From: an uncultured Clostridia bacterium
GTDB taxonomy: Bacteria > Bacillota > Clostridia > Oscillospirales > Ruminococcaceae
Reading direction: 5' to 3'
Assembly: GCA_947627905.1 (NCBI GenBank)
Contig: CANQXX010000002.1
Location: 1-64,000 of the forward strand
DNA length: 64,000 bases
The notes under the pieces were generated by a model. That model made no database searches. It saw only the letters and a list, made by a program, of their open reading frames with translations, and was not told the DNA's origin. How positions within the stretch are numbered: position 1 is the first letter of the stretch; each line of letters starts with the position of its first letter. Shown here piece by piece: positions 18,310-42,169 of this stretch. The position numbers and the translations under genes are program-made.

Positions 18310-18687
18310 ATCTGACGATCAAAATAAAAGAGGTCTAACCTCCGGATCGCCGAATAATATCGGTGATCGGGACGATAGACCTCGTGGTGCCACCCGTTTT
18401 TACGGAATTAAAAAATTCCGCCTCATTGGATACAGACTGATGCGGAACTTCAACATTTTTGTTAAAACAGTTCAAGTACGCCGCTAATGCAGTTATACCC
18501 TATCCACTAACGCAGGAAATCGGCGCGGACTACTTGGGAAATTAATATCACCCGTTTGCCGTTGCTTCTCACAAACCCATTCACAGATACCGTTATGATC
18601 CGCACTCACACCAACGGCGGATTCTCTGATACATCAGCATATCTGCTACTTACTTTTGATCGTCGAATTTAAAAATATTAAATTACG
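18310..18687 (-). promoter_or_regulatory. T-box leader (probably tRNA-Trp responsive) of the trp operon
   Basis: Minus strand has the T-box core GGGTGGCACCACG (rc of 18383-18395), a following terminator GAGGTCTA...TAGACCTCTTTTA, and a candidate TGG specifier in GTGAATGGGTT; directly upstream of trpE. Confidence 0.9.
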
Positions 18688-24821: not shown

Positions 24822-25039
24822 TTATCTTCTAAAATAACCGCCTTGCCGCCATGTGAAGCATAAAACCCGCACTCAGCAGGTGGGCAACAGCCCATCAGTT
24901 TCACGCTCCCTGCGTCCGTTGTTCCCCACATCTAATGGGGCGGGAGGTCTGCAATCCGCTGACGGAGACTGAATCCCTTTATTTATGTGTTGGATTATAA
25001 AATCACACTTTATCGGACAAGGCAGAAATTCATTTTCTG
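24822..25039 (-). ncRNA. ssrS: Probable 6S RNA
   Basis: About 218 nt between a TTGATT-17-TATAAT promoter (25046-25074, minus) and a strong terminator; no ORF. Closing stem GCCTTG(t)CCG...GTGTGA / TTCACAT..CGGCAAGGC, apical CCCCATtagATGTGGGG, and 3'-side small hairpins GGGCtgttGCCC and ACCTGCtgagtGCGGGT, as in Firmicute 6S RNAs. Confidence 0.62.
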
Positions 25040-25169: not shown

Positions 25170-25496
25170 TTATTCTTCTTCATCTTCATCGTAAATGTCA
25201 TTAAGACGTTCAAGGAACATATTTCCTATACGTTCATATTCTTCGTCATTGTCGATAGAAACGAGAGTTTCTTCATTGTTTTCGTCATATTCGGATTTGA
25301 GAACTACAAGCTCCGTATCTTCGGCAAGCTGGGCAGCCGGGTCACTGCTATAAGGAACAAGCGCATAATAACGTTCGCCGTCCACGTCCATAGTGTCAAG
25401 AAGTTCAAACTGCTGCTCGACGCCTTCCTCGTCCTCAAGGGTATAGATGTCGGCAAGCATATCCATATCGTCGTTCATATTATTCATATCCGGCAT
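25170..25496 (-). CDS. DUF1292 domain-containing acidic protein
   Basis: DIYTLEDEEGVEQQFELLDTMDVDGERYYALVPY pattern of DUF1292. Confidence 0.88.
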   Translation of the reverse strand: MPDMNNMNDDMDMLADIYTLEDEEGVEQQFELLDTMDVDGERYYALVPYSSDPAAQLAEDTELVVLKSEYDENNEETLVSIDNDEEYERIGNMFLERLNDIYDEDEEE

Positions 25497-25642: not shown

Positions 25643-25671
25643 TTGACATTGCACAATATCTGTGATATATT
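25643..25671 (+). promoter_or_regulatory. Strong sigma-A promoter of the repeat-array transcript
   Basis: TTGACA (25643-25648), 17-nt spacer, TATATT (25666-25671). Confidence 0.75.
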
Positions 25672-25710
25672 ATACTCAAGGACAAAGAAAAGATACAGAG
25701 GTCAAATTAA

Positions 25711-25811
25711 GGAAGCCGGTTTCAGAAGATCGGTTACTGCCGACGATGGTCAGGCACAACCCTTTGACAAGTCTTGTGAAGCTGCTGAGTAGGACGATGT
25801 TCCGAGCTTCC
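25711..25811 (+). other. Predicted RNA domain closed by a 9-bp stem
   Basis: GGAAGCCGG (25711-25719) pairs with CCGaGCTTCC (25802-25811), single bulged A. Confidence 0.5.
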
Positions 25812-25958
25812 GGATCGTTCCTGTAACTTTAAAGTTCTTTATCCGAAAGAAACGGATCCGATGAAAATCCGTGATTTCCACACGGTACATTCAGTCTGAG
25901 AATGGATCTGACGGGTTCGGAAATCTGTAAATTTTTCTTGGAAAGGGTGGCGAGTCCA

Positions 25959-26027
25959 ATGGAGGATGTAATTGAACAGCAGTTTACTCAGGCAGTCCGC
26001 AGCGACTCGTTTACAGCTTTGCTTTAA
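25959..26027 (+). CDS. Candidate 22-aa small ORF in the array transcript
   Basis: gggtggcgagtccaATGGAGGATG...: MEDVIEQQFTQAVRSDSFTALL*; its start region resembles the array element (GAGTCCAATGG). Confidence 0.35.
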   Translation: MEDVIEQQFTQAVRSDSFTALL

Positions 26028-26314
26028 GAAAAATTGTGTGGGGAGTATAAATGTAAGCGTCTTTAAGACCTCACTCCTGAATTAAGCGATTAGCAATTAA
26101 ATATCTTGAAGTATATAATGATAACGAGCCGCAGTTTTAGCAGATCATAGCTGAATTTGCGGTATTTTTATACCCTCAGGCTTGATATACAGTGCATCGA
26201 CGGTCTGCCGCCATGAATGTCCCGAATGGGCTTTACATAAAATGCTGTATGTTTTGATTTGAGGATTTTTTATCTTCATTGTCAGAACGGGTCACCAGTA
26301 AGAGGTGATGTCCT

Positions 26315-26356
26315 ATGAGAAAACTTAATATAGGTATCAGATACGTTATGAATTGA
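26315..26356 (+). CDS. Candidate micro-ORF MRKLNIGIRYVMN
   Basis: SD agaggtga; stop 7 nt before GGAGTGAG element. Confidence 0.35.
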   Translation: MRKLNIGIRYVMN

Positions 26357-26424
26357 TGTGATTGGAGTGAGACCACCTGACAGGTTAATTTCTTCCTGAT
26401 ATTGAATTTTAAGAAGGGATGCAT

Positions 26425-26466
26425 ATGAGGTATTTTGAATATGCGTATCACGATCTGAATATCTGA
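26425..26466 (+). CDS. Candidate micro-ORF MRYFEYAYHDLNI
   Basis: SD aagaaggga; stop 13 nt before next element. Confidence 0.35.
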   Translation: MRYFEYAYHDLNI

Positions 26467-26570
26467 ATGAATTTTGAAAGAGGTGAGTCCGACAGGACGT
26501 GCATAACGGTTTTGACCGATACGGAAAAAATCTATCGGGTGTTTCCCGTTAAGAATTGAGTGATCTTCAA

Positions 26571-26606
26571 ATGGTAATGAGAAAGGCTTTTAACAGAAAA
26601 ATCTGA
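26571..26606 (+). CDS. Candidate micro-ORF MVMRKAFNRKI
   Basis: Stop 7 nt before GGAGTGAG element at 26614; weak SD. Confidence 0.28.
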   Translation: MVMRKAFNRKI

Positions 26607-26687
26607 TAAAGCAGGAGTGAGTCCAATGGCATAGTTTGCGGCTTCAATGCCTTAATGAATTTACAATTCCAAAAGGAGTCGGTTTAT

Positions 26688-26729
26688 ATGATCTGTTCAA
26701 TAACTGTACTGAAGGAATTTGATTTTTAA
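26688..26729 (+). CDS. Candidate micro-ORF MICSITVLKEFDF
   Basis: SD aaaaggag; TAA abuts GGAGTGAG element at 26730. Confidence 0.35.
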   Translation: MICSITVLKEFDF

Positions 26730-26792
26730 GGAGTGAGTCCAATGGCATAGTCTTATTCTCTTGATGAATATTTCCGAAGGAGCTGTTGCTTT

Positions 26793-26825
26793 ATGCGCAG
26801 AAAATTTTACAGTAAGAAATATTGA
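26793..26825 (+). CDS. Candidate micro-ORF MRRKFYSKKY
   Basis: SD gaaggag; stop 7 nt before element at 26833. Confidence 0.35.
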   Translation: MRRKFYSKKY

Positions 26826-26901
26826 TTTTATGGGAGTGAGTCCAATGGCATAAGTACAGATGTTCCGCTTTATCGTTTAATTCTGAAAGGAAGCGGTGTC
26901 T

Positions 26902-26934
26902 ATGAAAAATGTTCGGAGTTATTTGAAAATCTGA
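26902..26934 (+). CDS. Candidate micro-ORF MKNVRSYLKI
   Basis: SD aaagga; stop 6 nt before element at 26941. Confidence 0.35.
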   Translation: MKNVRSYLKI

Positions 26935-27001
26935 AAGATCGGAGTGAGACCACCAGAACATTTAGTTGTGCTGCAAAGCCATATTTAATTAAAATAGATT
27001 G

Positions 27002-27033
27002 ATCCGCAGGATGTTGCTCCTGCGGATTTTTGA
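27002..27033 (+). terminator. Intrinsic terminator of the array transcript
   Basis: ATCCGCAGGatgttgctCCTGCGGATTTTT. Confidence 0.85.
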
Positions 27034-27050
27034 TTTATATGCAATTTGTT

Positions 27051-27079
27051 TTGACTATTTCTGCGTTACTGCATATAAT
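27051..27079 (+). promoter_or_regulatory. asnB promoter
   Basis: TTGACT-17-TATAAT between the array terminator and asnB. Confidence 0.75.
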
Positions 27080-27112: not shown

Positions 27113-28954
27113 ATGTGCGCTATTGCAGGGCAAATTTTTCCCGCCGGAATAAAGGCGGAAAAATTCCGCGGAACATATGAAAAAATGTACCGTACAATGA
27201 CCCGCCGCGGTCCGGATCAGAACGGCTCTTTTATAGATGAAAACGCCGCTCTTATCCATGCAAGACTTTCCGTAGTCGATCCGGAAAACGGTTTGCAGCC
27301 TATGGAACTGCATATCGGTGAAAAACATTTTATACTTATTTACAACGGCGAGATCTATAACGCTTCAGAACTTAAAAATGAACTTTCTGCCCTTGGACAT
27401 GATTTTACAACACATTCTGATACTGAAGTCCTGCTCCATGCTTATGCAGAATGGGGCGAAGAATGTACCGGACATCTCAACGGCATTTTTGCTTTTGCCG
27501 TATGGGAAAAGCATAACGGACGCATCTTTTTTGCACGCGACAGAATGGGCGTGAAGCCGTTCTTTTACGCAGTCTGCAATAACAGCTTCATTTTTGCTTC
27601 CGAAATAAAAACTTTGCTTGCACATCCGTTTTTAAGACCTGAGCTTGACCGTGCCGGTCTTATGCAGATAATGCTGTTAGGTCCGGGACGTATCCCCGGT
27701 GACGGCGTTTTCAAGGATATAAAAGAGCTTCTTCCCGGTGAACAGGGATACTTCTATTCCAAAAATTCCGGACTTGAAAAAAAAATTTACTGGCAGCTTG
27801 AAGATAAGGAGCATACCGATAATTTTGAACAGACCGTCGAAAAAGTCAGATTTCTTGTGACGGATTCGATAGAACGGCAGCTCGTATCGGACGTTCCGGT
27901 ATGTACATTTCTGTCGGGAGGATTGGATTCAAGCATAATCTCAGCCGTTGCCGATAAACATTTTACCGAAAAAGGAGAACGCCTTAAAACCGTTTCGGTA
28001 GCCTATAAGGATAACGAAAAATATTTCAGGGCAAGCAAATTCCAGCCAAACAGCGACGAAAACTTTATCAGGATAATGAATGAAAATTTAAATGCGGAAC
28101 ATATGCTTGTCCTTATTGATACTCCCGAGCTTGCATCGGCTCTTTATGAAGCTGTGGACGCGCGCGATCTTCCCGGAATGGCTGACGTGGATTCGTCCCT
28201 GCTGCTGTTCTGCAAGGAGATAAAAAAAGTCGCTACAGTTGCGCTTTCCGGCGAATGTGCCGACGAGATATTCGGCGGCTATCCTTGGTATAGGGATAAA
28301 ACTATCCGGGAAAGAGAGGGTTTCCCATGGGCACAGTCTACAGCATGGAGAGCAGGATTTTTCCGCCCGGAATTTCTTGAAGGTACAGATCCGGTGAAAT
28401 ATGTAGATCACTATTACAGAAAAACCGTTGATGAAAGTTCGATCCTTCCCGGTACAGACAAAACCGAAGCCCGCATGAAGCAGATGATGAACCTGAATGT
28501 AAAATGGTTCATGCAGACGCTTCTTGACCGCAAGGACAGAATGAGTATGTACAGCAGTCTTGAAGTGCGCGTGCCGTTCTGTGACCACAGGATAGCGGAA
28601 TATCTTTATACCGTTCCGTGGGATTTCAAGGATCATAACGGCTGCGAAAAGGGACTGCTCCGTGAAGCGATGAAAGGACTTCTCCCCGAAGAGGTCTTGT
28701 GGCGGAAGAAAAGTCCATATCCAAAAACGCATAATCCCTCGTATATGAAAGCTGTTTCGGAGGAGCTTAGAAAAATAATTTCCGATCCTGATTCTCCTCT
28801 TTTGTCACTCGTGCGGAAAGAAGCTCTGGAAGAACTTCTTGTTTCGGAAAATGCTGCTCCGTGGTACGGTCAGTTAATGAATATCCCCCAGACGATAGCG
28901 TATTTTCTTCAGCTGAATTATTGGCTCGGGAAATACAATGTACAGATCGTATGA
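27113..28954 (+). CDS. asnB: Asparagine synthase (glutamine-hydrolysing)
   Basis: MCAIAGQI (catalytic Cys2), RGPDQNG, YNGEIYN, SGGLDSSI; start set at 27113 after ggagg. Confidence 0.95.
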   Translation: MCAIAGQIFPAGIKAEKFRGTYEKMYRTMTRRGPDQNGSFIDENAALIHARLSVVDPENGLQPMELHIGEKHFILIYNGEIYNASELKNELSALGHDFTTHSDTEVLLHAYAEWGEECTGHLNGIFAFAVWEKHNGRIFFARDRMGVKPFFYAVCNNSFIFASEIKTLLAHPFLRPELDRAGLMQIMLLGPGRIPGDGVFKDIKELLPGEQGYFYSKNSGLEKKIYWQLEDKEHTDNFEQTVEKVRFLVTDSIERQLVSDVPVCTFLSGGLDSSIISAVADKHFTEKGERLKTVSVAYKDNEKYFRASKFQPNSDENFIRIMNENLNAEHMLVLIDTPELASALYEAVDARDLPGMADVDSSLLLFCKEIKKVATVALSGECADEIFGGYPWYRDKTIREREGFPWAQSTAWRAGFFRPEFLEGTDPVKYVDHYYRKTVDESSILPGTDKTEARMKQMMNLNVKWFMQTLLDRKDRMSMYSSLEVRVPFCDHRIAEYLYTVPWDFKDHNGCEKGLLREAMKGLLPEEVLWRKKSPYPKTHNPSYMKAVSEELRKIISDPDSPLLSLVRKEALEELLVSENAAPWYGQLMNIPQTIAYFLQLNYWLGKYNVQIV

Positions 28955-41995: not shown

Positions 41996-42023
41996 TTTCT
42001 GCCGTACAAATTGAATAATATGT

Positions 42024-42150
42024 TTCAGGGCGAGGTGCAATTCCTCACCGGCGGTAATGGGACGGCAGTCCTTAGTCCGCGAGCGGATAGCGATATCCGC
42101 CGATCTGGTGCGATCCCAGAACCGACGGTACAGTCCGGATGAAAGAAACA
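42024..42150 (+). promoter_or_regulatory. FMN riboswitch (RFN element)
   Basis: TTTCAGGGCGAGGTGCAATTCCTCACCGGCGGTAAT...AGTCCGCGAGCG...GATCTGGTGCGATCCCAGAACCGACGGTACAGTCCGGATGAAAGAAAC. Confidence 0.97.
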
Positions 42151-42169
42151 ACACACATTTCAGTGCATT

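Follow-up and report, generated by a model that had tools for sequence, protein, structure and literature searches.

Open reading frames of only two codons are familiar either as regulatory elements that occur singly or as laboratory poisons, and the lambda bar minigene is likewise a single element in cis or a laboratory construct. Elements of this type, such as lambda bar, axe-txe mg2 and B. subtilis ycbK, consist of a Shine-Dalgarno (SD) sequence, an ATG, one further codon and a stop, and two-codon ORFs of the same build, each with its own SD, are found at the locus described here. Also axe-txe mg2 and ycbK (PMC8708949) are each either one element in cis or a laboratory construct, whereas the present minigenes form a conserved array in what appears to be an independent RNA gene. 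With uORF and leader-peptide attenuators the unit has in common a short 5' ORF, a structured domain and a terminator-like hairpin; unlike them, it has no conserved, regulated protein gene downstream in the same transcript and finishes with a terminator that belongs to the unit itself. OLE, GOLLD and ROOL are, as the unit would be, large stand-alone bacterial RNAs in anaerobic Bacillota, from which it differs by having no Rfam match, by an unstructured minigene array and by a translated signature, conserved secondary structure not extending over most of its length. Repeated SD-like motifs along the RNA are also typical of CsrB/RsmY-type sponge RNAs, but those of the unit lead to a start and an immediate stop, the copies in other genera lack GGA, and the array is intact where no CsrA is detected. 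Single minigenes apart, we know of no conserved stand-alone minigene array, and no description of a comparable one was found in the open-licence PMC literature.

The window, that is, the whole stretch of 64,000 nucleotides that was analysed, contains between a divergent DUF1292 gene and a gene named asnB in the initial annotation (ATG at 27113) a unit of 1.35 kb whose main features are collected in Table 1. The promoter, hairpin and T-tract claimed for it are all present, as is a second promoter, TTGACT-17-TATAAT at 27051-27079, ahead of asnB. Promoter-like matches are not in excess in the sequence (8 found against a shuffle mean of 8.3), in contrast to terminator-like sites (8 against 2.0), but since the -35/-10 block of the unit is near-invariant across the 17 genus homologues, a chance match can be set aside. 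The absence of a plus-strand ORF of 60 or more amino acids inside the unit also holds, the longest having 54 codons with a GTG start (25662-25826). That the unit is not simply the asnB leader was likewise borne out: its terminator, the separate asnB promoter and the lack of alignment among relatives beyond the terminator rule this out, while the divergent DUF1292 gene upstream is conserved. As read from the sequence, the unit thus forms an independent RNA gene that has a promoter and a terminator of its own. When Rfam covariance models were run on it, as had been proposed, no family reached the gathering score and a permissive scan gave chance-level matches only. Elsewhere in the window, Rfam matches were limited to an FMN riboswitch (42017-42154, plus strand), a T-box leader (18365-18672, minus strand) barely over the cut-off at 94.3 vs 93 bits, and a 6S RNA (24831-25031, minus strand) just beyond the DUF1292 gene and close to the RNA unit. 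Directly after the terminator of one relative (L044, minus orientation) lies sequence that, judged by eye, resembles the start of RNase P RNA.

Table 1 Features of the RNA unit and its conserved neighbour (peptides are given up to the stop codon)
Feature	Position	Strand	Remarks
DUF1292 gene (PF06949), divergent	25170-25496	-	Conserved neighbour marking the locus; PF06949 E=1.4e-17 at 25203-25430
Promoter TTGACA-17-TATATT	25643-25671	+	11/12 consensus matches; block near-invariant in 17 genus homologues
SD of ORF1, GGAAAGG	25940-25946	+	Invariant or nearly so in genus; register 8-9 nt
Helix H1, CGAGUC / GACUCG	25951-26009	+	25951-25956 / 26004-26009; encloses ORF1 start
ORF1, MEDVIEQQFTQAVRSDSFTALL	25959-26027	+	Start kept; 16-28 codons across family
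Helix H2	26022-26111	+	26022-26029 / 26104-26111; encloses H3 and H4
Hairpin H3	26042-26046 / 26073-26077	+	Inside H2
Hairpin H4	26084-26096	+	Inside H2; compensatory changes
Terminator-like hairpin H5, then UAUUUUU	26128-26169 (helix 26128-26163)	+	Possible attenuator; fold z=-3.8; paired in 14/14
Micro-ORF MRKLNIGIRYVMN	26315-26356	+	Start and short length kept 17/17
Motif copy without start codon, GGAGTGAGACCACC	26364-26377	+	Conserved in genus
Micro-ORF MRYFEYAYHDLNI (HDLNI ORF, ...YAYHDLNI)	26425-26466	+	pN/pS 0.30, P=0.007; in-frame 9-nt deletions
Motif copy without start, AGGTGAGTCCGACAGGACG	26482-26500	+	With GUCC-GACA-GGAC hairpin
Micro-ORF MVMRKAFNRKI	26571-26606	+	17/17
Minigene 1, GGAG SD + ATG GCA TAG	26614-26634	+	
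Micro-ORF MICSITVLKEFDF	26688-26729	+	Counterparts in most aligned relatives
Minigene 2, SD + ATG GCA TAG	26730-26750	+	
Micro-ORF MRRKFYSKKY	26793-26825	+	
Minigene 3, SD + ATG GCA TAA	26833-26853	+	
Micro-ORF MKNVRSYLKI	26902-26934	+	Pattern-found in 15/17
Motif copy without start codon, GGAGTGAGACCACC	26941-26954	+	
Intrinsic terminator, hairpin + T-tract	27001-27033	+	

The initial annotation had named decayed sequence, without conservation in relatives, as one way in which its interpretation could fail, and the search for homologues refutes this. The 1.4-kb sequence is single copy in its own genome, is matched in 20 of the 21 genomes of the genus and has counterparts in further genera; in public records the matching genus genomes appear as metagenome assemblies of Ruminococcus sp., Oscillospiraceae or Clostridia, several of them from herbivore guts. 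A pattern anchored on ORF1 found matches in 34 of 297 family genomes (16 of 126 genera; none with a reversed control pattern) and was almost absent elsewhere in the order, where of the matches in other families the one in G490 looks genuine and those in G488 and G486 look like chance. At nearly all homologous loci, including one genome of another family, the unit is divergent from a DUF1292 gene, mostly at 150-580 nt from that gene to the ORF1 anchor. This conservation together with the synteny indicates an orthologous locus and rules out a decayed gene. A second survey, which started from DUF1292 genes picked without reference to the motif, detected at least one minigene in 12 of 28 family genera. 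Reduced versions of the unit occur in another family of the order (L106, L139), and no version was seen at the class-level loci, most but not all of which the scan could place. A phage element was also considered; 11 pattern matches in viral contigs look like chance, since they mostly open longer ORFs, and none has a promoter plus a minigene array.

When 17 members of the genus are aligned, four parts can be told apart: the promoter, which hardly varies, a variable stretch, the structured 5' domain that contains ORF1, and finally the array. Within the 5' domain (25940-26180), which combines conserved structure with the 22-codon ORF1 and a terminator-like hairpin, a model of five helices has 94% of its cells paired, compared with 30-39% when it is slid along the alignment, the compensatory changes being concentrated in one hairpin, H4. 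Helix H1 can be formed in 28 of 33 family loci against 4.6 expected, and the reading frame into which its 3' strand falls differs between genera. The length of ORF1 is kept while H1 partly dictates its letters; with a pN/pS of 0.87, its peptide is not clearly selected. The H5 helix directly precedes UAUUUUUAUA, and the two together may form an attenuator. For CUCACUCC (26070-26077), pairing with the GGAGUGAG repeats was considered and rejected in favour of the local helix H3, which explains it better. Within H3 an ATG is followed immediately by TAA (26051-26056), and this ATGTAA is retained in most, though not all, relatives. At two loci (L042 and L049) insertions between the 5' domain and the array share a similar AAAGGCTGAGCCTTTACCCTT, possibly a small mobile repeat.

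Downstream, ORFs of 10-14 residues alternate with a motif, GGAGTGAG[TA]CC or a close variant of it, and the stops of these micro-ORFs sit a little ahead of the next SD. In the 17 homologues, ORF1 and four micro-ORFs have kept their starts and have remained short (the last one in 15 of 17, by pattern), indels being mostly of three bases. Of the six main motif copies in the window, three run on as ATG GCA TAR, giving minigenes of the form GGAG-N8-ATG-GCA-stop, two as ACCACC and one as the GUCC-GACA-GGAC hairpin; the genome has no further instance of the exact SD+ATG signature. Over the family loci, which were found via the ORF1 pattern and not via minigenes, GG-N5..10-CC-N-ATG occurs 135 times in sense and 4 times in antisense orientation, with 7 occurrences in an upstream control stretch. 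After removal of ORF1 and near-duplicates, 26 of 41 motif ATGs open ORFs of at most 3 codons, as compared to 65 of 494 (13%) antisense background ATGs (P=3e-12), and 17 of the 41 open ORFs of exactly two codons (P=3e-13), P values that are only guides because the loci are related by descent. The second codon is of 16 kinds and the stops are TAA (29), TAG (16) and TGA (12), a variability that points to selection on having a stop and not on its letters.

Of 75 minigenes, 60 have their SD at a spacing of 7-9 nt, whereas spacing is flat in the background, and SD pairing at the minigenes is longer than background, as assessed with the general Bacillota anti-SD, no 16S 3' end having been found in the genus genomes. 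In some lineages the SD is AAAGG and in others GGAG, at the same register, which fits a real SD and not a fixed sequence motif. A GGA-nnn-UCC hairpin as the repeated motif was rejected because its third pair shows no covariation, GGA..ACC and GGT..TCC both being common; an SD plus spacer is preferred. To sum up the sequence comparison, starts, stops, SD register and synteny are conserved and the peptides of most ORFs are not, while structure is predicted for the 5' domain and hardly any for the array.

We consider it about evenly probable (roughly 0.5) that the unit is an RNA gene whose transcript serves as a serial ribosome-loading device, where the start and the immediate stop would matter more than the product. 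The structured 5' domain, with its leader ORF and terminator-like hairpin, may set the amount of full-length RNA, and the remainder would resemble an mRNA, mostly open, with a series of strong SD+ATG sites that each run into a stop after a few codons, 10-14-residue micro-ORFs alternating with two-codon minigenes (Met-Ala in this window). Since the micro-ORF stops lie shortly before the next SD, a terminating ribosome could re-initiate at once on the minigene, and what is constrained would be the act of initiating and then terminating at once. According to the summary in PMC8708949, minigenes may have a protective effect on mRNA, and re-initiation is helped by a strong SD. Most likely the RNA would hold ribosomes, so as either to titrate initiating subunits and initiator tRNA, if it is abundant, or to provide a read-out of initiation capacity, and it may also be shielded from nucleases in this way. 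The abundance and translation of the RNA, the cycling or re-initiation of ribosomes on it and its physiological purpose are our inferences. Several observations count against ribosome loading: the number of minigenes differs widely between lineages, about half of the sampled family genera have no minigene of the tested pattern, one micro-ORF (HDLNI) is constrained in its peptide, and half of the six main motif copies in the window lack a start codon, so the motif may serve beyond initiation.

The initial annotation had offered two options, a micro-ORF polycistron or a large ornate RNA in the sense of OLE, GOLLD and ROOL, and of these the former finds strong support in conserved starts and stops, SD register and minigenes, and the latter finds none for the minigene array. 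In RNAalifold runs on the genus alignment, the 5' domain scored z=-6.1 and the first array part, with its local hairpins after the HDLNI ORF, z=-5.7, compared with -0.9 in the middle and -0.7 in the minigene stretch; a single-sequence fold of the minigene array gave -0.4. Conserved structure is thus predicted only in the 5' domain and in those local hairpins, the 3' array being largely unstructured. A large structured noncoding RNA with incidental short ORFs would explain the helices with compensatory changes in the 5' domain and the hairpins in the first array part, but as an account of the whole unit it is very improbable, given that the minigene part has no conserved fold, that no Rfam family matches, and that starts, stops and SD register are selected; as judged from these predictions, an ornate RNA is excluded for the minigene part and may still apply to the 5' domain. 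Turning to the polycistron, a set of functional micro-peptides would have bioactive 10-14-residue ORFs, above all the HDLNI ORF, and minigenes that act as ribosome-recycling spacers. The HDLNI ORF is the only one tested with clear amino-acid constraint; its counterparts across the family end in LNI or LNF, and in some genera (L084, L088, L104) the LNI micro-ORF and the following motif occur two to three times. However, the other four of the five ORFs tested are near neutral (pN/pS 0.77-0.90, not significantly below column-permuted controls), and the minigenes, although the most widespread element, are too short for informative peptides, which makes the micro-peptide reading rather unlikely.

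Minigenes could also act as a poison or brake of the lambda bar type, with two-codon ORFs that shed peptidyl-tRNA, sequester certain tRNAs and place a load on peptidyl-tRNA hydrolase. The form of the ORFs is identical, the literature as summarised by PMC8708949 has two-codon ORFs and strong SDs as the most toxic, and Lys codons (AAA/AAG) take second place at codon 2 with 9 of 57 minigenes. The commonest second residue is Ala, however (GCA/GCT, 26 of 57), which is found at position 2 of highly expressed proteins, and the suggestion has been made that GCN codons stabilise dipeptidyl-tRNA and that A-rich codons favour drop-off (PMC1397820). This would fit efficient, non-poisonous cycling better than a bar-type toxin, the place of Lys notwithstanding, and we regard a poison as improbable. 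Much the same low probability is given to a sponge for an RNA-binding protein, CsrA-like or other, that would recognise GGAGUGAG, with the ORFs being secondary. There are six to eight motif copies per RNA, also where no ATG follows, and CsrA is present in 18 of the 21 genus genomes, but no CsrA (PF02599) was found in the genome of the window itself (G000, 96% complete) or in its nearest relative (G018), both of which keep the RNA with its array. These intact arrays weaken a CsrA sponge in particular and leave room for another binding protein. Other genera use an AAAGG SD without GGA at the same register, and a sponge leaves the selected stop codons unexplained. The absence of PF02599 from the two genomes may itself be a lineage-specific loss or an assembly gap.

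Returning to serial ribosome loading, we tentatively propose, at somewhat less than even odds, that the unit represents a new class of stand-alone RNA, present in much of the family, in which serial start-stop cycling would control the availability of ribosomes, initiator tRNA or initiation factors and a translated 5' attenuator would gate the output. If this is true, there would be a bacterial gene whose product is the starting and stopping of translation itself. Such an RNA would also offer a natural tool for studying initiation, termination, re-initiation and ribosome availability, and it would explain an RNA of widespread gut anaerobes that is likely to have been missed by gene callers, small-protein screens and structured-RNA screens.
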